Below are positions 1 to 18,006 of a stretch of 64,000 bases of DNA, one piece after another; within the stretch, counting starts at the first letter, position 1; the number at the start of each line of letters is the position of its first letter. The stretch spans positions 186,001 through 250,000 of the forward strand of contig CANMLW010000001.1 of assembly GCA_947498705.1 (NCBI GenBank). The letters are read 5' to 3'. The position numbers and the translations under genes are program-made. A model generated the notes under the pieces. That model searched no databases and was not told the origin of the DNA. It was given only the letters and a program-made list of their open reading frames with translations. Source of the stretch: an uncultured Aquimarina sp. Lineage in GTDB: Bacteria; Bacteroidota; Bacteroidia; Flavobacteriales; Flavobacteriaceae.

Positions 1-571
1 GTTCTCCCATTCCAGCAAGAATAAGTATTCCAGAAAAAACAACGACACCGATACCATCATTAAATAGTGATTCACCTTCGATTTTAATACTTAAACTTTT
101 TGCAATATTTGATTTTTTAAGAATTGCCATTACTGCTATTGGATCTGTTGGAGATATCAATGCTCCAAATAGCAAGGCATGTAAAAAAGGTAAATTTATA
201 CCGATTAATTGTGCTGTATAATAAGTTAAGCAACCTACAATAAAAGTAGATATTAGCACCCCTAATGTTGCAAAGAGAAGTATTGGCCATTTTTCTTTTG
301 CCAGTTCATCTATATTTACATGCAATGCTCCTGCAAAAAGAAGAAAACTTAAAATCCCGTCTAGCAATAATGACCTGAAATCAGAATTAGTAACAATATC
401 ACAGAAAAACTTATAGAATTCTGGAACTATATTTTTACTAAGAGTAATAAGGATGATGGTGACCAAACTCATTAGCATCAATCCAATAGTAGTAGGGAGC
501 CTAAACCACTTATAGTTTACAAAATTAAAAAAAGCAGCGATGGCAAAAATAATACTGAAAGATTGTAACAT
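1..571 (-). CDS. CPA1-family Na+/H+ antiporter, C-terminal part cut by window edge
   Basis: The reverse strand reads from an ATG at 571 to the window edge without a stop, giving the first 190 residues. At least five hydrophobic segments are visible. The motif ISPTDPIAV and, about 20 residues later, EGESLFNDG are the family signatures; the Asp residues belong to the ion-binding core of cation/proton antiporter family 1. The protein probably exchanges Na+ (or K+) for H+ across the inner membrane. A minus-strand -7-like box (CAAAAATA at 616-623) lies 45 bases upstream of the start. The rest of the protein lies to the left of the window, so any C-terminal TrkA or cNMP domain cannot be judged. Confidence 0.88.
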
Positions 572-746: not shown

Positions 747-2702
747 TTAAATAAGGTCAACATCTGTAATTACCTCTAGTAAAGCGGGACCTTTATGGTC
801 TCTTATTTTTTTCATAGCTGGTATTAAATCTTCTAATTTTTCTACACGTATGCCAAGTGCTCCACAATTTTGTGCAAATTCTGCAAAATTAGGGTTAACA
901 AGAGATGTTTGCCATACATCGAGTTCTGCTGCACGTTGTTCTTTAGAGATTTTTCCTAGTTCAGAATTATTAAGGACAATATGCTTAATATTCATATTGT
1001 ATTTTACCAAGGTTGTAATTTCTGAAAGGTATTGTCCAAGTCCACCGTCTCCAGATACAGACCAAATAGGACGTTCATGTCCTTGTGCTGCCCAGGCTCC
1101 AATTGCCGCCGGTAATGCAAAGCCTATCGATCCTAAATAACCAGACATGATGATAGATTGCTTTTTAGGTTCAAAATACCTCCCAAAAGAGTACGTATTA
1201 TTTCCAACATCAACCGCTATTACTGCATCATCAGGTGTTATCTTATTCATAGCATCAAAAAGTGCTATAGAACTAAGCCCTTTATTATTAGAATCTTCTA
1301 ATCTACTTTGTTTTTCCTCTCTCCAGATTTTCCACCGGGCTGCTATTTCTGGTTTTTGATTTATGGTATTGACTTTTCCTGTTGTTTTTTCTTTTAGTAC
1401 AGCCAAAGTTTCTGATATTTCTCCCCATAAAGCGGCATCTACTTTATGAAATTTACTTAGGGCCATAGGATCAAAATCTACCTGAATGATTGGTTTTTTG
1501 GGCGTAATCCCGGTATGATTAGAAAAAGAAGCTCCAAAAACAATTAGAAGGTCACTTTCATTCATAAACCAAGAAGCGATTGGAGTACCGCTTCTTCCTA
1601 GTACACCGCAACCTAATACATGATGATCAGGGATAAGTCCTTTTCCTTTAAAAGTTGTAATTACAGGACAGTTAAGTGTTTCTGCATAAGTAATTATAGC
1701 GTCCATATTAAATCTAGCACCATGACCTACAATAATAACTGGTCTTTTTGCAGATAGAATCATTGTACTTGCTTTGTTGATCATTTCTTTTGGAGGAGAA
1801 ATACAGAAAGAAGTAATTCTATTTTCTGGGGTTTGCGCTTTATCTCTTTTCTTCTTATTACTAAATGCTACTTCATCAGGAAAGGTTAAATGCGAAACTT
1901 CTCTTTTTATAAGTGCTGTTTTAATAGCTAGAGACATTAGTTCGCTATGGTTAGAATTTTGATGAACAGCATGATTAAACTCTGCAACCGATTCAAATGC
2001 TTTGGCAAGATCAACTTCCTGAAAAGCACCAGTGCCAACCACTTGGGTGTTTACTTGTCCTGATAATGCTAATAATGGCGCTCGATCTACTTTTGCATCC
2101 CACATCCCAGTAAACATATTGGTGGCACCTGGGCCTGCAATACCAAAACATGCAGCTGGCTTACCAGTAAGTTTTGCATATCCAGATGCAGCAAAAGCTG
2201 CGGCTCCTTCGTGTCTAATACCAAAATATCTAAGTTTTCCTTCGTTTTCTAATCTTCTCATAGCATCTGCAACACCAAGATTACTATGTCCTACCATACC
2301 AAATACTGTATTGACTCCCCAGTTAACCATAGTTTGTATCATCACATCAGAAACGGTTTCTTGATGTATAGTTTCTTCAGGTACGCCCACATAAATAGCG
2401 TTATCCTTTTCTTTAACATCAAAGGTGTTTACCCCATCGTCATAGCCACCTGGTGGTAATCCAGTACAAGGGTGAAAATCCCAACCATGCCATGGACAAC
2501 GCAGTAAACCATTTTCTATAGATCCTTCTCCCAACGGCCCTCCTTGATGAGGACATCGGTTGTCTAAAGCAGAAAATTTACCTTCAAAATGAGTTAAACA
2601 AATACCTTGATGACCGGCGGTAACGGTTTGTACTCTTCCTTCTGGTAGTTTGTCTTTTGTATCCAATACTTTATACCATACTGTCTCTTTTTTTGAAGCC
2701 AT
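747..2702 (-). CDS. Rieske [2Fe-2S] domain fused to a thiamine-diphosphate enzyme (pyruvate oxidase/acetolactate synthase-like)
   Basis: Residues 1-110 form a Rieske domain with ligands C50, H52, C69 and H72 (CPHQGG and CPWHGW). Residues from about 115 to 651 form a full ThDP enzyme: catalytic Glu165 in RHEGAAAF, a central Rossmann-like domain (about 310-420), and the GDGG...NN cofactor motif near 551-580. Known ThDP oxidases and lyases of this group decarboxylate 2-oxo acids or act on oxalyl/acyl-CoA substrates; the substrate cannot be read from the sequence. The fusion suggests electrons leave through the Fe-S cluster. It is the last gene of a minus-strand operon with 3897-5507, 3110-3859 and 2721-3104 (gaps of 37, 5 and 18 bases). 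I chose the ATG at 2702; a TTG two codons upstream is possible. Confidence 0.87.
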   Translation of the reverse strand: MASKKETVWYKVLDTKDKLPEGRVQTVTAGHQGICLTHFEGKFSALDNRCPHQGGPLGEGSIENGLLRCPWHGWDFHPCTGLPPGGYDDGVNTFDVKEKDNAIYVGVPEETIHQETVSDVMIQTMVNWGVNTVFGMVGHSNLGVADAMRRLENEGKLRYFGIRHEGAAAFAASGYAKLTGKPAACFGIAGPGATNMFTGMWDAKVDRAPLLALSGQVNTQVVGTGAFQEVDLAKAFESVAEFNHAVHQNSNHSELMSLAIKTALIKREVSHLTFPDEVAFSNKKKRDKAQTPENRITSFCISPPKEMINKASTMILSAKRPVIIVGHGARFNMDAIITYAETLNCPVITTFKGKGLIPDHHVLGCGVLGRSGTPIASWFMNESDLLIVFGASFSNHTGITPKKPIIQVDFDPMALSKFHKVDAALWGEISETLAVLKEKTTGKVNTINQKPEIAARWKIWREEKQSRLEDSNNKGLSSIALFDAMNKITPDDAVIAVDVGNNTYSFGRYFEPKKQSIIMSGYLGSIGFALPAAIGAWAAQGHERPIWSVSGDGGLGQYLSEITTLVKYNMNIKHIVLNNSELGKISKEQRAAELDVWQTSLVNPNFAEFAQNCGALGIRVEKLEDLIPAMKKIRDHKGPALLEVITDVDLI

Positions 2703-2720
2703 ACTCAAATTTTATTGGTG

Positions 2721-3104
2721 TTATGATTTATTATTGAATTGATCTTGCCTGATATTTACCGCTTTAAATGAATAAAGAATTAATATAATCAAGCCTAATA
2801 GGGCACTTATAATGCCAGTAATTGTAATGTATATTGCAGAATCAAAATTAGCTTGTGTACTTTTGTAAACACCTGCAATTAATGCCGAAATAACGAAAAG
2901 TGCCACTGCGATATATAGAAAAACCATTGCGCTATTAAGCAGTTTTAATTGTTTCAATTTTCGTTTTATAAGTCCTTCTTCAATGGTTACTTCTTTAATT
3001 AATTCTTTAATTTCAGTACTTAGATTAACTAAAAGATTAGAAGTAGATAATATCAAAAGCCCAATACCAGGAATTATAGTTGCCGGGATATACCAGTGTT
3101 CCAT
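2721..3104 (-). CDS. Small inner-membrane protein, possibly DUF2721-like
   Basis: This 127-residue protein has three predicted membrane helices: residues about 6-28, 59-80 and 90-112. A charged, helical stretch of about 30 residues separates helices one and two, carrying the run KRKLKQLKLLN. This layout resembles DUF2721 membrane proteins, but the match is only by impression. It lies 5 bases after 3110-3859 and 18 bases before the Rieske-ThDP gene, so it is almost certainly co-transcribed. It could anchor the two Rieske enzymes or pass electrons to the membrane; that is inference only. Confidence 0.7.
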   Translation of the reverse strand: MEHWYIPATIIPGIGLLILSTSNLLVNLSTEIKELIKEVTIEEGLIKRKLKQLKLLNSAMVFLYIAVALFVISALIAGVYKSTQANFDSAIYITITGIISALLGLIILILYSFKAVNIRQDQFNNKS

Positions 3105-3109
3105 TATAT

Positions 3110-3859
3110 TTATTTTTTATAACTGATAAACGCTTCTTCAAAAAAGGCACTGGCTTTATTTAGATCAACACCGGTTATCGGTAAAATAGCTCCTTTATAT
3201 TCTTCACTATACCACTTACCATGGGTTAAAGAAGAAAATTCTGAAGTATCAATCGCATCATGACCTTTATATGCACTTATATAAAAGTAATAATCATTAA
3301 CCATGGTATCTGGAATTGCAAGCCCTAGTCCCACAGATGTTCCTTTTTCATCATTAAAGGTAGAAAAAGCGCCAATGTCAAAGTGATGTGGCCAGACTCT
3401 AATTTCAGAATTCAAATGATGATTCTTCAGAAATGTTTCAAGAGTATGTTGTGCCAATTTTCTATGATTAATCAACTCTTGTAATGCCGTTTTATCTTGT
3501 AATGTAAATTTATAAGTATCTGTAATGGTTGGATAAGGTAATTCATAATGAAATTCATAGTGATACGGCTTTTCAATCGATGCTTTGGTAGCCATTTCTG
3601 ATATCCATTTTAGAACATCTTTATGGGTAGTGTTGTTTAATTGTAAAGTGTTTGTTGTAGCATTCGATTTCCATTCTAAAGAAAAATCATGATAGTTAAG
3701 TGATAACGTATCTCCTTTCTGATTTAGAGGACGAGTATACATCTTGGCTGTTACCGATGAAAACCCAAGATTAGTATGACTATCGTCATTTGTTTTGTTT
3801 AAAAAACTGATTCCAGCGGCGGCTAGGTATTGAGAGGCAATATGCATTTGTGTGGTCAT
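3110..3859 (-). CDS. Conserved hypothetical protein in the Rieske operon
   Basis: This soluble 249-residue protein has no signal peptide. I do not recognise the family. It contains a notable WPHHFDIG stretch near residue 156, which could bind a metal, and ends in a region rich in aromatics. It begins 37 bases after the Rieske-glutamate-synthase gene and ends 5 bases before the small membrane protein, so it belongs to the same operon. Its function is unknown. Confidence 0.75.
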   Translation of the reverse strand: MTTQMHIASQYLAAAGISFLNKTNDDSHTNLGFSSVTAKMYTRPLNQKGDTLSLNYHDFSLEWKSNATTNTLQLNNTTHKDVLKWISEMATKASIEKPYHYEFHYELPYPTITDTYKFTLQDKTALQELINHRKLAQHTLETFLKNHHLNSEIRVWPHHFDIGAFSTFNDEKGTSVGLGLAIPDTMVNDYYFYISAYKGHDAIDTSEFSSLTHGKWYSEEYKGAILPITGVDLNKASAFFEEAFISYKK

Positions 3860-3896
3860 ATTTTTAGTTTTTAGGTGTTAAGAATATTAGAATATG

Positions 3897-5507
3897 TTAT
3901 ACTACTCCAGCATAGTTAATACCTGATAATCTGTGTGTATCATAATCAAAAGTTGATAAATCGTCGGAGTTAAATTTGGCAATATCATCATATCCACATG
4001 CTCGGGCAATTACCTTGATGAGATCGTTGGTGGCATCAAAGTAATTATGAAGTTGTTTGGCAGAAGATTCTATTAATAATCTACTTCTTAAGGATTCTTT
4101 TTGTGTTGCAATACCTACCGGGCAATTATTACTTCCGCAAGCACGCATTCCCAAACAACCGATTGCTTGTAATGCAGAGTTTGATACTGCTATAGCATCT
4201 GCACCCAACATTAGAGCCTTGGCAAAATCTTCTGCTATTCGCAACCCTCCTGTAATTATTAAGGTAATGTCCTTGGCGTTAACGCTATCCAGGTACTTTC
4301 GTGCTCTTGCTAATGCGGGAATAGTTGGAACATTAATATTGTCTCTTAAGATAGTTGGGGCAGACCCTGTTCCTCCTCCACGGCCATCAAGAATGATATA
4401 ATCGACGCCTACATCCAAAGCAAATTGAATATCTTTTTCGATATGACTAGCTGCAATTTTAAAACCAATAGGAATACCGCCGGTTCTTTTTCTTACTTCT
4501 TCTGCAAAGTCCTTAAAATCGTTTACCCCATGAAAATCTGGAAAAGTGGCAGGAGATATTGCAGTTTGTCCTTCTTTTAGACCTCGTACAGCTGCAATCT
4601 CTTTAGTTACTTTGCTTCCGGGTAAATGACCTCCGGTTCCTGTTTTAGCCCCTTGTCCTCCTTTAAAATGAAATGCCTGAACCTTATCAAGTTTATCCCA
4701 TGAGAATCCAAATTTTGCAGAGGCTAGTTCGTAAAAGTATTTGGTATTATTCTCTTGTTCTTTGGGGAGCATTCCACCTTCTCCCGAACATATTCCCGTT
4801 CCCGCCATTTCTGCACCTCTGGACAATGCTATTTTTGCCTCACGTGAAAGCGCTCCAAAACTCATATCACTTACAAATAAAGGAATGTCTAGTTTTAATG
4901 GTTTTTTTGCATTAGGACCTATTACGACTTGAGTGACAACTTCTTCGTGATCTAATAAGGGCCTATTGGCCAGTTGAGCTGGTAAAAACTGAATGTTAGA
5001 CCATTTTGGCAATGTATTACGGTCAACACCCATAGAAGCCGAAAAGCCATGATGTCCAAGGTTTTTGAGTCCGTTTTTTGCAAGTTCTTTTATATAACCT
5101 GTATAAGGTTCTGTGTCTTCGGGATGAGTATCGGCATATGCCCCAAGATATTCATTTCTGTTAAAAGGCTGTGGGTGTTCTTCTAAATATGCATTGATTT
5201 CATTTTCATCAACATAAAGAGTATCTTTTTCTATCTTGGTATTAAATTTTTGTAATACTTCTTTGTTATTATATTCAGAAACTCCTGTATCATATCTATA
5301 ATCCCAACCATGTACACCGCAAATTAAATTATGTCCATCAATATGTCCATCGGCCATTAAGGCTCCTCTATGTAGACATCTTCCGTAAAGTACAGAAATA
5401 TCGTTGCCGTATTTAATAATGACTAAGTCTAATCCATTTACAAGAGCATGAGTAGGCTTTTTATCTTCTAAGTCATTTAGTTGAGCAATGGCGATGGGTT
5501 TTTTCAT
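3897..5507 (-). CDS. Rieske [2Fe-2S] domain fused to an FMN-binding glutamate synthase-like domain
   Basis: Residues 1-105 are a Rieske domain (C44, H46, C63, H66 in CLHRG and CGVHGWDY). From about 150 onward the protein is the FMN/TIM-barrel synthase domain of large-subunit glutamate synthase. It shows GGQGAKTGTGGHLPG, DGRGGGTGSAPT and a C-x5-C-x4-C cluster ending in NCPVGIATQ, which in GltB binds a 3Fe-4S centre. The glutamine amidotransferase domain and the beta-helix tail of true GltB are absent, so it need not make glutamate from glutamine. It is the first gene of the four-gene operon. The promoter should lie in 5508-5600, where a near-consensus CAAATATG is present on this strand. Confidence 0.88.
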   Translation of the reverse strand: MKKPIAIAQLNDLEDKKPTHALVNGLDLVIIKYGNDISVLYGRCLHRGALMADGHIDGHNLICGVHGWDYRYDTGVSEYNNKEVLQKFNTKIEKDTLYVDENEINAYLEEHPQPFNRNEYLGAYADTHPEDTEPYTGYIKELAKNGLKNLGHHGFSASMGVDRNTLPKWSNIQFLPAQLANRPLLDHEEVVTQVVIGPNAKKPLKLDIPLFVSDMSFGALSREAKIALSRGAEMAGTGICSGEGGMLPKEQENNTKYFYELASAKFGFSWDKLDKVQAFHFKGGQGAKTGTGGHLPGSKVTKEIAAVRGLKEGQTAISPATFPDFHGVNDFKDFAEEVRKRTGGIPIGFKIAASHIEKDIQFALDVGVDYIILDGRGGGTGSAPTILRDNINVPTIPALARARKYLDSVNAKDITLIITGGLRIAEDFAKALMLGADAIAVSNSALQAIGCLGMRACGSNNCPVGIATQKESLRSRLLIESSAKQLHNYFDATNDLIKVIARACGYDDIAKFNSDDLSTFDYDTHRLSGINYAGVV

Positions 5508-15319: not shown

Positions 15320-16648
15320 ATGATGCAATATGTACCTAATATACTTTTTGTAATAGCCCTTGTAGCAGGTATTGGATATTTTACTAAAAATATACGTAAA
15401 GTTATTCGAAATATCCGATTAGGGAAAGATGTAGATCGTTCTGATAATAAAAGTGAACGGTTTAAAAACATGATGAGAGTTGCTTTAGGGCAATCAAAGA
15501 TGGTGCGTCGCCCTATTGCTGGATTTTTACATATTGTAGTATATATTGGATTTTTAATTATTAATGTAGAGGTTTTAGAAATTATCATTGATGGTATTTT
15601 TGGAACCCATAGAGTTTTTGCGTTTTTAGGAGGTCTTTATGATTTTCTAATTGCTTCATTCGAGATTTTAGCATTACTTGTTTTAGTAGGAGTTATCGTT
15701 TTTTGGATTAGACGTAATGTTATTAAACTAAAACGTTTCTGGAATCCTGAAATGAAAGGTTGGCCAAAAAGCGATGGTAACTGGATTCTTTATTTCGAAA
15801 TGATATTAATGACTTTGTTTTTAGTAATGAATGCTTCCGATTTGCAGTTGCAAAATATAGGGGCAGAACATTATATAAAAGCAGGTTCTTATCCAGTTAG
15901 TCAGTTTATTTCACCTTTTTTTGATGGGCTTTCAGAAATAACACTTATTGTGATAGAGAGAACTGCATGGTGGCTACATATTTTAGGAATTCTGGTGTTT
16001 TTAAATTATTTATATTTTTCAAAACACCTACATATCATATTGGCTTTTCCTAATACCTATTATGAAAATCTAAACCCTAAAGGGCAATTGGATAACCTTG
16101 AAGCCGTTACAAATGAGGTAAAACTTATGATGGATCCAAATGCAGACCCTTTTGCAGCACCAGCTGAAGATGATGTTGCGGGTGAACCAGAAAAGTTTGG
16201 AGCATCAGATGTTACGGACCTTAATTGGGTACAATTGTTAAACGCCTATACATGTACAGAATGTGGTCGATGTACTAGTGAATGTCCGGCAAACCAAACA
16301 GGAAAGAAATTATCTCCACGAAAAATTATGATGGATACCCGTGATCGTCTTAAGGAGGTAGGGGATAATATAGATAAAAATGGCAGTTTTGAAGATGATA
16401 ATAAACAGCTATTAGGTGACTATATCAGTGCAGAAGAGTTATGGGCATGTACAAGTTGTAATGCTTGTGTAGAAACCTGTCCTGTAGGTATAAGCCCTTT
16501 GTCAATTATAATCGATATGCGACGTTATCTGGTGATGGAGCAAAGTGCGGCACCATCAGATTTAAATAATATGATGTCTAATATTGAAAACAATGGAGCT
16601 CCTTGGCCATTTAACCAAATGGATCGTTTAAACTGGAGTAACGAATAA
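15320..16648 (+). CDS. Membrane (Fe-S)-binding oxidoreductase subunit, HdrD/GlpC N-half type
   Basis: This 442-residue protein has an N-terminal membrane domain with about five helices (residues 5-25, 75-95, 108-132, 155-175 and 215-240) of the nitrate-reductase gamma/HdrE type, probably haem-binding. A C-terminal bi-cluster ferredoxin domain has CTECGRCTSECP near 312 and CTSCNACVETCP near 376, binding two 4Fe-4S clusters. The CCG domains of a full HdrD are missing here and are encoded separately at 17215-18006. Together they probably shuttle electrons between quinone and a cytosolic acceptor. Its physiological substrate is unknown. Confidence 0.88.
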   Translation: MMQYVPNILFVIALVAGIGYFTKNIRKVIRNIRLGKDVDRSDNKSERFKNMMRVALGQSKMVRRPIAGFLHIVVYIGFLIINVEVLEIIIDGIFGTHRVFAFLGGLYDFLIASFEILALLVLVGVIVFWIRRNVIKLKRFWNPEMKGWPKSDGNWILYFEMILMTLFLVMNASDLQLQNIGAEHYIKAGSYPVSQFISPFFDGLSEITLIVIERTAWWLHILGILVFLNYLYFSKHLHIILAFPNTYYENLNPKGQLDNLEAVTNEVKLMMDPNADPFAAPAEDDVAGEPEKFGASDVTDLNWVQLLNAYTCTECGRCTSECPANQTGKKLSPRKIMMDTRDRLKEVGDNIDKNGSFEDDNKQLLGDYISAEELWACTSCNACVETCPVGISPLSIIIDMRRYLVMEQSAAPSDLNNMMSNIENNGAPWPFNQMDRLNWSNE

Positions 16649-16715
16649 TAACCACATTTTTACTATTTAATTATTAACCACAATTCACCACCATTTTAAT
16701 GAAAAAACTTAAAGT

Positions 16716-17162
16716 ATGAAAAAAGAAGAAATTGATAAATTATTGCACGACAAGGTAGAAGAAGGAGAACATGTAAGTCCGGTATTACCAGAAGGTATTA
16801 AAAATTACCTTATCGATATAGATGGTACAATTACTGAAGATGTACCAAATGAGGAGCCTGAACGTATGGCAACTTGTAAGCCCTTCCCAGATGCTTTAAA
16901 AACATTAAATGAATGGTATGACCAAGGACATATTATATGTTTTTTTACCTCTAGAACCGAAGCTCATAGAGAAGTAACAGAGATTTGGCTTAAAGAGCAT
17001 GGTTTTAAGTACCACAGTATATTAATGGGAAAACCAAGGGGAGGTAATTATCATTGGATCGATAATCACTTGGTAAAAGCTACAAGGTATACAGGTAAGT
17101 TTACCGAGTTGGTAGAACGCGTTGTTACTATAGAAGTCTTTGACGATGGTAAACACGATTAA
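16716..17162 (+). CDS. HAD-superfamily phosphatase-like protein
   Basis: This 148-residue protein has HAD motif I (IDIDGT, the two Asp at about 34 and 36), motif II (FFTSRTEA near 81) and motifs III/IV as KPRGGNYHWIDNH (about 109-121). There is almost no cap, so it should act on large or polymeric phosphorylated substrates. Its place between two halves of an Fe-S oxidoreductase is striking and suggests co-transcription, although a direct functional tie is not evident. Confidence 0.8.
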   Translation: MKKEEIDKLLHDKVEEGEHVSPVLPEGIKNYLIDIDGTITEDVPNEEPERMATCKPFPDALKTLNEWYDQGHIICFFTSRTEAHREVTEIWLKEHGFKYHSILMGKPRGGNYHWIDNHLVKATRYTGKFTELVERVVTIEVFDDGKHD

Positions 17163-17214
17163 AAAAAGCTTTTGATTTTCCTTTGTTAAAAAGGATAACT
17201 ATAAAAATAAGAAT

Positions 17215-18006
17215 ATGAGCGAAGCGATAAAAGTGCCAACAATGGCAGAGTATATGGCAGAAGGAAAGAAACCAGAAGTTCTTTTTTGGGTTGGATGTGC
17301 AGGTAGTTTTGATGATCGGGCAAAGAAAATCACAAAGGCTTTTGTTAAATTACTTCATAATGCTAATGTCGATTTCGCTGTATTGGGTACAGAAGAAAGT
17401 TGTACGGGGGACCCGGCAAAAAGAGCGGGTAATGAGTTTTTGTTTCAGATGCAAGCCGTTACGAATATAGAAGTAATGAATGCCTATGAGATTAAAAAGG
17501 TAGTTACTGCATGCCCACATTGCTTTAACACTCTAAAGAATGAATATCCTGTATTAGGAGGAGATTACGATGTAATGCACCATACAGAGTTTCTTAAGTC
17601 ACTTCTTGATGAAGGCCGCTTAAAAGTTGAAGGAGGTAAGTTTAAAGGAAAACGAATTACGTTTCATGATCCCTGTTATTTGGGACGCGCAAATAACGTG
17701 TACGAGGCCCCTAGAGATTTACTTAAGAAATTAGAGGTGGAACTTATAGAAATGAAAAGATGCAAGCGTAATGGTTTGTGTTGTGGGGCAGGAGGAGCAC
17801 AGATGTTTAAAGAGCCAGAGCCGGGAAATAAAGATGTTAATGTCGAAAGAACAGAAGAAGCGTTAGAAACAAAGCCAGATATCATCGCCGCAGGTTGTCC
17901 TTTTTGTAATACAATGATGACAGACGGGGTAAAAAACAAAGAAAAAGAAGATAGTATACAGGTTTTGGATGTAGCAGAACTTATTGCTAACGCTCAGGAT
18001 ATATAA
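17215..18006 (+). CDS. Cytosolic CCG-domain (Fe-S)-binding protein, HdrB/GlpC C-half type
   Basis: This 263-residue protein contains two cysteine-rich CCG-type domains. The first has CPHCFNTL near 97. The second has HDPCYLGRANN near 152, NGLCCGAGGAQMF near 189 and AAGCPFCNTMMTDG near 225. This fold binds a noncubane 4Fe-4S cluster in heterodisulfide reductase HdrB and also occurs in LutA and GlpC. It is the natural partner of the membrane Fe-S protein at 15320-16648, from which it is split by the HAD gene. The start is an ATG at 17215. Confidence 0.88.
   Translation: MSEAIKVPTMAEYMAEGKKPEVLFWVGCAGSFDDRAKKITKAFVKLLHNANVDFAVLGTEESCTGDPAKRAGNEFLFQMQAVTNIEVMNAYEIKKVVTACPHCFNTLKNEYPVLGGDYDVMHHTEFLKSLLDEGRLKVEGGKFKGKRITFHDPCYLGRANNVYEAPRDLLKKLEVELIEMKRCKRNGLCCGAGGAQMFKEPEPGNKDVNVERTEEALETKPDIIAAGCPFCNTMMTDGVKNKEKEDSIQVLDVAELIANAQDI

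Follow-up and report, generated by a model that had tools for sequence, protein, structure and literature searches.

Small one-electron iron domains have been described on the flavin mononucleotide (FMN) core of glutamate synthase-like (GltS-like) proteins in two forms; published statements given here and below are those in the excerpted text of each paper. CD0828 of C. difficile joins a rubredoxin domain to a GltS-like FMN/3Fe-4S protein and is encoded in the rbr-perR-sor operon, CD0828 mutants lose 3-5 logs of H2O2 survival, and the protein is reduced slowly by NADH (PMC11980386). The type 5 CDGSH (CISD) proteins are fusions of twin CDGSH domains with the FMN domain of glutamate synthase (PMC3174974), and a CDGSH-GltS fusion is also mentioned in PMC5859297. 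The Rieske domain is a listed electron-transfer domain of one bacterial ferric reductase superfamily model (PMC3591440). The present work concerns 64,000 nucleotides of DNA from an uncultured Aquimarina sp. (contig CANMLW010000001.1, positions 186,001 to 250,000; this whole stretch is called the window) and, within it, a four-gene locus encoding a Rieske domain fused to a GltS-like protein (Rieske-GltS) and another Rieske domain fused to a thiamine diphosphate (ThDP) enzyme related to pyruvate oxidase (POX) (Rieske-ThDP). The two Rieske-tagged enzymes are encoded side by side in distant bacteria and in haloarchaea, which suggests an uncharacterised shared electron route. We favour, at somewhat less than even confidence, a modular one-electron redox relay of Rieske-tagged enzymes that operates in an oxidative or electrophile stress context.

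By open reading frame coordinates the four genes form a minus-strand run from 5507 down to 747 with intergenic gaps of 37, 5 and 12 bp, and the run is followed by a Na+/H+ antiporter gene that begins at 571, 175 bp downstream of the Rieske-ThDP gene (Table 1). An alternative start of the ThDP gene, an ATG at 2702, 6 bases past the TTG, would give a protein of 651 amino acids. The genome search returned just one additional Rieske match, a separate 401-amino-acid frame at C1:636822. A promoter scan did not exceed background (18 sites against 24.4 expected), and the four proteins had no match in a defence-system library. An earlier note on this DNA had read from the letters the coordinates and order of the four genes, a Rieske domain with all four ligands on each of two unrelated enzymes, a GltS core that keeps its 3Fe-4S cysteines and lacks the amidotransferase, and, between the fusions, a soluble protein with a WPHHFD motif and a small membrane protein; all of this was borne out by residue checks and by Pfam scores above curated cut-offs, and the small membrane protein is DUF2721. 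The note also called a possible shared electron route undescribed to its author's knowledge; this holds for Rieske-GltS, for Rieske-ThDP and for their linkage (nothing was found on them in the open-licence literature) and fails for tagged GltS proteins as such, both CD0828, with rubredoxin, and the type 5 CISD fusion, with CDGSH, being in print.

The Rieske-GltS protein scores 43.5 bits for Rieske (PF00355) and 292.6 bits for Glu_synthase (PF01645; cut-off 20.4), and among solved structures it is best matched by the large chains of glutamate synthase. No amidotransferase family is among the Pfam matches of the 536-amino-acid protein, which thus differs from the glutamate synthase (GOGAT) holoenzyme with its amidotransferase on the same chain. 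The 3Fe-4S cysteines C451, C457 and C462 are kept in all 63 aligned GltS relatives. The four Rieske ligands are intact in 55 of the 63, and the other eight comprise five rubredoxin forms, two CDGSH forms and one degenerate Rieske form. The two GOGAT residues of the 2-oxoglutarate site (Lys and Gln, which we take to be K972 and Q978 of Azospirillum glutamate synthase) are not both present in the window protein: the Lys is kept in 63/63 relatives, and the Gln is replaced by His in the window protein, in 51 of the 55 Rieske forms and in all five rubredoxin forms. Since the Gln is His in nearly all Rieske forms, the substrate has probably changed. The protein does have the features of a CD0828-type redox-tagged GltS, i.e., an N-terminal one-electron iron domain followed by an FMN core with C-x5-C-x4-C, and, compared by description with the excerpted account of CD0828, a similar length (~480-540 amino acids); it differs in carrying Rieske in place of rubredoxin. 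The type 5 CDGSH proteins, as excerpted, have the same core type with CDGSH [2Fe-2S] domains instead of Rieske. The nearest named relatives, among the best 80 of at least 589 confirmed ones, are Aquimarina proteins 88-90% identical. A second GltS copy in genome G001 (L081:5105-6739) has lost all four Rieske ligands and is a cluster-free paralogue.

The Rieske-ThDP protein matches Rieske (PF00355, 56.2 bits) and the N, M and C domains of TPP_enzyme (117, 111 and 114 bits), all above curated cut-offs, and it has the three domains, the catalytic Glu and the GDG...NN motif of the ThDP superfamily. Its Rieske ligands are intact in both sets of relatives (31/31 and 23/23). Over the three ThDP domains, the solved structures nearest to it are those of pyruvate oxidase and pyruvate dehydrogenase [cytochrome] (PoxB) (E 5e-63 and 2e-61), enzymes that depend on ThDP and flavin adenine dinucleotide (FAD). 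The protein falls below the NCBIfam cut-offs for pyruvate oxidase (PRK08611, 406.1 bits against 742; TIGR02720, 310.1 bits against 637.85) and is not a member of these equivalogs. The catalytic Glu E167 and F229, Q230 and E590 are kept in an alignment with pyruvate oxidase, whose chain of 585 residues is matched as far as residue 535. Unlike pyruvate oxidase and E. coli PoxB, the window protein has an N-terminal Rieske domain, and two pocket residues, a Gly and a Phe (presumably G35 and F479 of pyruvate oxidase), are replaced by His141 and Lys586. Both replacements are invariant in the 23 aligned relatives; in the second set they are found in 31/31 and 30/31, the odd row being a gap. The invariant His and Lys, which replace Gly and Phe, point to an additional negative charge on the substrate, and the two positive or polar groups that they bring to the pocket suggest that it may be dianionic.

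The N-terminal slot of the GltS core is interchangeable, being occupied by Rieske, by one or two rubredoxin domains, or by twin CDGSH (L092, L093 and a Vibrio fortis plasmid). Rubredoxin-GltS was found in 12 of the 60 phylum-survey genomes with a GltS core; rubrerythrin adjoins it in 8 of the 12 loci, one other lying at a contig edge, which parallels the rbr operon described in the excerpts on CD0828. The named GltS loci lack this setting, with no rubrerythrin match in 80. Within genus g280 (n=14, top three candidates per genome scored) four genomes have Rieske, ten have rubredoxin and none has both. In a tree of 145 GltS cores (135 Rieske), the rubredoxin forms lie outside (support 0.90; remaining group 0.71) and the CDGSH forms (0.996) nest inside the Rieske group (0.96), which implies at least two tag exchanges. 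The Rieske domains of GltS, of ThDP and of a membrane protein described below form three groups (supports 0.46, 0.97 and 0.91) with between-type mean identities of 24%, 22% and 34%; independent acquisition by the three proteins is therefore likely, though not proven. The earlier note had allowed that the Rieske domains could be plain structural adaptors without a cluster. Apart from the second copy in G001, which speaks for such a role, the ligands are intact in the 55 GltS forms noted above, seven of the other eight have a different iron domain, and all 31 ThDP forms keep them; functionless adaptors are very improbable. An iron domain of one type or another occupies the slot in almost every case, which electron transfer explains best, and judged on sequence the tags most likely function as electron carriers. 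A separate idea, that Rieske replaced rubredoxin in aerobic organisms, was dropped because COX1 passes its cut-off in 39 of 43 genomes on both sides and fails to separate rubredoxin from Rieske carriers.

The gene-neighbourhood survey called for by the earlier note was run on 249 Flavobacteriaceae genomes, 395 phylum genomes and the named loci, and the fusions co-occur. Among the Flavobacteriaceae, 18 genomes have both fusions, five have ThDP only, 11 have Rieske-GltS only and 215 have neither (Fisher odds 70, p 8e-16; all Fisher values were computed without regard to relatedness, and the significance is overstated here because the genomes are related); G150 was scored GltS-positive with its GltS gene in three frame pieces. 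In the phylum set, Rieske-ThDP is present in 11 genomes and the GltS core in 60, and 10 of these 11 also have the core; in G370 Rieske-ThDP has no GltS match and lies on a 3.9 kb contig. Both fusions are present in 26 distinct genomes; they lie at most 5 kb apart in 20 of these, 9 kb apart in G242 and on different contigs in five draft assemblies (G415, G422, G476, G491 and G595), so the separation in most genomes that the earlier note named as a possible outcome was not seen. In 25 of the 80 named loci the Rieske-ThDP gene lies 8-4091 bp from GltS, on the same strand in 23 of the 25. These pairs belong to four bacterial phyla (16 Bacteroidota, six Alphaproteobacteria and one each of Myxococcales, Nitrospirales and Gammaproteobacteria). 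When only the 50 loci with at least 4 kb on both sides are taken from the 78 that have a called GltS gene, Rieske-ThDP is present in 20. The 80 GltS loci span Alpha- and Gammaproteobacteria, Nitrospinaceae, Nitrospirales, Planctomycetota, Myxococcales, Gemmatimonadetes, Acidobacteriota, Poribacteria and Candidatus Lucifugimonas (which we take to be Chloroflexota). One locus, L236, was left out of the ThDP tally (26 to 25 loci) as its ThDP gene is Rieske-less and of another type. The simple gene caller, in which the longest frames win, missed GltS in L220 and L240 (of 80), in L151 and L159 (of 77) and in others, so neighbour counts are lower bounds; the named-genome and survey sets overlap, with redundancy kept.

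Full-length Rieske-ThDP matches were found in 5 of 72,556 plasmid records, four haloarchaeal and one from Mycobacteroides, and all four translated plasmid proteins have the Rieske ligands and pocket motifs. Three haloarchaeal plasmids carry both fusions, with Rieske-GltS 1.4, 4 and 17 kb from ThDP. The plasmid and cross-phylum pairs point to horizontal transfer of the linked set. The pairing of the two fusions is not due to chance, and their functional linkage is supported. The earlier note had gone further and suggested as possible a shared route in which ThDP oxidation of a 2-oxo acid feeds a flavin-dependent reduction. In such a scheme electrons would pass from Rieske to Rieske and the GltS-like enzyme would use them for a reduction (e.g., imine to amine). 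Such a direct route fits the tightest spacing, 8-30 bp in the Geminicoccaceae, Hoeflea, Myxococcales and Roseibium loci, and the presence of GltS (in G150 in pieces) or an FMN-reductase-like protein in 23/23 Flavobacteriaceae ThDP genomes; we consider it unlikely, since 11 of the 29 Flavobacteriaceae genomes with Rieske-GltS have no ThDP fusion and the His at the 2-oxoglutarate site makes a changed substrate probable. Functional linkage is thus supported and an obligate two-enzyme route is not. The frequent occurrence of GltS without ThDP implies a role of its own and other partners for GltS.

Two further proteins are associated with the fusions. A ferric-reductase-type transmembrane protein with a C-terminal Rieske domain, the third Rieske fusion, was found in 22 of the 80 named loci, and its conserved histidines and Rieske ligands are present in 16/16 aligned members (of the 22). 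By analogy with its family it would bind two haems. Its architecture is that of the Rieske-containing ferric reductase superfamily model, for which the excerpted text of PMC3591440 mentions no tie to GltS or ThDP. A membrane-anchored protein accompanies it in 20 of the 22 loci, with C170, H183, C186 and C190 invariant in 20/20 aligned; one member tested had no Pfam match, and its model (predicted local distance difference test, pLDDT, 84) gave only generic OB-type matches, three Foldseek hits lying just under E 0.001 and the best Z being 7.8. Among the Flavobacteriaceae the membrane Rieske protein is intact in 11 of 23 ThDP genomes against 0 of 11 GltS-only genomes, and in two more ThDP genomes it is in two frame pieces (G150) or cut by a contig end (G079) (p 0.006 counting 11, 0.002 counting 13). 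In G379, G430 and G292 (one of them Balneolaceae) it occurs with GltS and without a ThDP match. The other protein, of the FMN_red family (at least 89% identical), is present in 5/5 Flavobacteriaceae genomes that have ThDP without GltS and in 0/18 that have both (p 3e-5; G370 of the phylum set was left out of this survey). In three of the five its gene immediately precedes the WPHHFD gene; in G211 one other gene comes between the two, and in G217 the FMN_red gene immediately precedes ThDP. On the Mycobacteroides plasmid, a relative with 56% identity, which is the level of distant, widespread forms, is encoded ~2 kb away from ThDP. A general mutual exclusion of Rieske-GltS and FMN_red was rejected: the 11 genomes with a close form (at least 86%) show zero overlap, and as just ~1.3 overlaps were expected this is not significant alone, so that only the conditional test within ThDP genomes was used. 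Distant relatives (47-56%) coexist with GltS in G011, G242, G063, G076 and G203.

We propose the following relay; its substrates, direction, partners, wiring and purpose are what we infer. The ThDP protein would act like pyruvate oxidase, decarboxylating a 2-oxo acid and passing two electrons to a predicted FAD, and its Rieske domain would hand them out singly rather than to O2 (as in POX) or to quinone (as in PoxB). The GltS-like protein would act like CD0828, its FMN, 3Fe-4S cluster and one-electron tag being linked to external partners. Both fusions may share a one-electron pool, namely the membrane Rieske-haem protein where it is present and, in the genome of the window, a soluble carrier or the two fusions themselves exchanging electrons with each other. 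The likely purpose would be to sustain reductant flow under oxidative or electrophile stress, a response to which the neighbouring antiporter, K+ channel and NAD(P)HX-epimerase-like proteins would also belong.

Several results weigh against the relay. Fifty of the 60 phylum genomes with a GltS core have no ThDP fusion; G177, the sole other genome of the same genus sampled, has neither fusion; and the genome of the window has no membrane Rieske-haem protein. Of the 11 genomes that carry the close FMN_red protein, six lack both fusions, so this protein, of which distant forms are common, is not exclusive to the system. The three distinct Rieske groups permit independent roles, and the COX1 survey did not separate the carriers of the two tags. 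In the excerpts on the model protein, electron transfer from CD0828 to Rbr and Sor is judged too slow for physiology and the CD0828 mutant has no menadione phenotype (PMC11980386). The alternative is a stress island, in which two independent redox stress enzymes are co-regulated and co-transferred and exchange no electrons. The variable neighbours (Crp-type regulator, PycTM, K+ channel, antiporter and NAD(P)HX epimerase-like proteins) and the five genomes with the fusions on different contigs agree with it; the same type of tag on both proteins, drawn from distinct Rieske groups, and the close FMN_red protein in exactly those Flavobacteriaceae ThDP genomes that lack GltS do not. We regard this explanation as somewhat doubtful in itself and nearly as likely as the one-electron relay.

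If the relay is correct, a ThDP-flavin enzyme with its own Rieske domain would be a third electron outlet beside O2 (POX) and quinone (PoxB). In the excerpted literature CD0828 is required for peroxide survival with its partners unresolved (PMC11980386), and the CDGSH-GltS type is classified with no function given (PMC3174974); a third tag on the GltS core, linked to Rieske-ThDP and to a Rieske membrane protein, supplies candidate partners for a redox-tagged GltS. A broader and distinctly doubtful extension is a horizontally mobile bacterial and haloarchaeal redox network in which the Rieske tag, rather than the catalytic core, defines membership and ThDP, GltS and haem proteins, having gained their Rieske domains independently, trade single electrons from Rieske to Rieske, draining a 2-oxo acid (and possibly damaged reduced cofactors) into peroxide or electrophile defence.

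Table 1. Coordinates of the locus in the window and of related features in other loci
Feature	Coordinates	Strand	Details
Rieske + GltS-like FMN/3Fe-4S protein	3897..5507	-	536 aa; Pfam Rieske + Glu_synthase
N-terminal Rieske domain of GltS-like protein	5199..5507	-	ligands C44 H46 C63 H66
WPHHFD protein	3110..3859	-	249 aa; related to DUF5996
DUF2721 membrane protein	2721..3104	-	127 aa; Pfam
Rieske + pyruvate-oxidase-like ThDP protein	747..2708	-	653 aa from TTG
N-terminal Rieske domain of ThDP protein	2382..2684	-	ligands C52 H54 C71 H74
Na+/H+ antiporter gene start	1..571	-	414 aa; exits window at left edge
Membrane Rieske protein	L060:3748-4779, L131, L132, L212 and others		usually then anchored C/H/C/C protein
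Rubredoxin-GltS	L165:4201-5790, L163, L164, L166, L167, L254-L260		then rubrerythrin in 8/12
Twin-CDGSH GltS cores	L092:6823-8334, L093:2216-3724, L253:5680-7230		
YjeF_N genes	L079:9095-9826, L251:12098-12829, L077, L080, L083, L084, L089		

The WPHHFD motif occupies residues 156-161 of its protein, and W156, H158, H159 and D161 are present in 38/38 relatives. Two of six relatives tested match DUF5996 (PF19459; 133 and 189.5 bits); the window copy lies below detection, with no match to this family at E up to 10, and no paper naming DUF5996 was found in the open-licence literature. The AlphaFold model is confident (mean pLDDT 95.9) and gave nothing below E 0.001 against solved structures in Foldseek; its best VIA-align match (Z 8.7, root-mean-square deviation 3.4, 104 aligned) covers the C-terminal half only. 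The protein is encoded in 26 of the 34 Flavobacteriaceae genomes with either fusion (18/23 ThDP, 8/11 GltS-only) and in 38 of 77 loci. The DUF2721 protein scores 36.4 bits in Pfam (cut-off 28.3), and its cluster was found in 11 of 77 loci. The antiporter family, to which the window gene belongs by clustering, is present in 17 of 37 Flavobacteriaceae loci, and another member scores 199 bits for Na_H_Exchanger in Pfam.

Additional recurring neighbours are a Crp-type regulator, a K+ channel, PycTM and a YjeF_N protein. The PycTM-family (Pycsar effector-like) membrane protein is found in 11 of 37 Flavobacteriaceae loci (e.g., L085:6519-7145), often downstream of GltS or WPHHFD. In Bacteroidota and Haloferax, stand-alone YjeF_N (NAD(P)H-hydrate epimerase-like) genes lie close to GltS or ThDP, a possible hint that damaged NAD(P)H is a substrate. 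Near the haloarchaeal ThDP genes, an antiporter with a K+ channel or an NAD(P)H-hydrate epimerase recurs. Genes annotated as dihydrolipoyl dehydrogenase lie near ThDP on two haloarchaeal plasmids (L250:3838-5274; L251:6138-7568 and 15912-17273), one of which also has pirin and DsrE genes, and a peroxiredoxin gene is on a third plasmid (L249); these surroundings look like a stress island. At L236:4445-7716, just downstream of Rieske-GltS, a GltS-like protein of another kind, whose N-terminus is hydrophobic, adjoins the Rieske-less ThDP gene, a parallel GltS-ThDP pairing.

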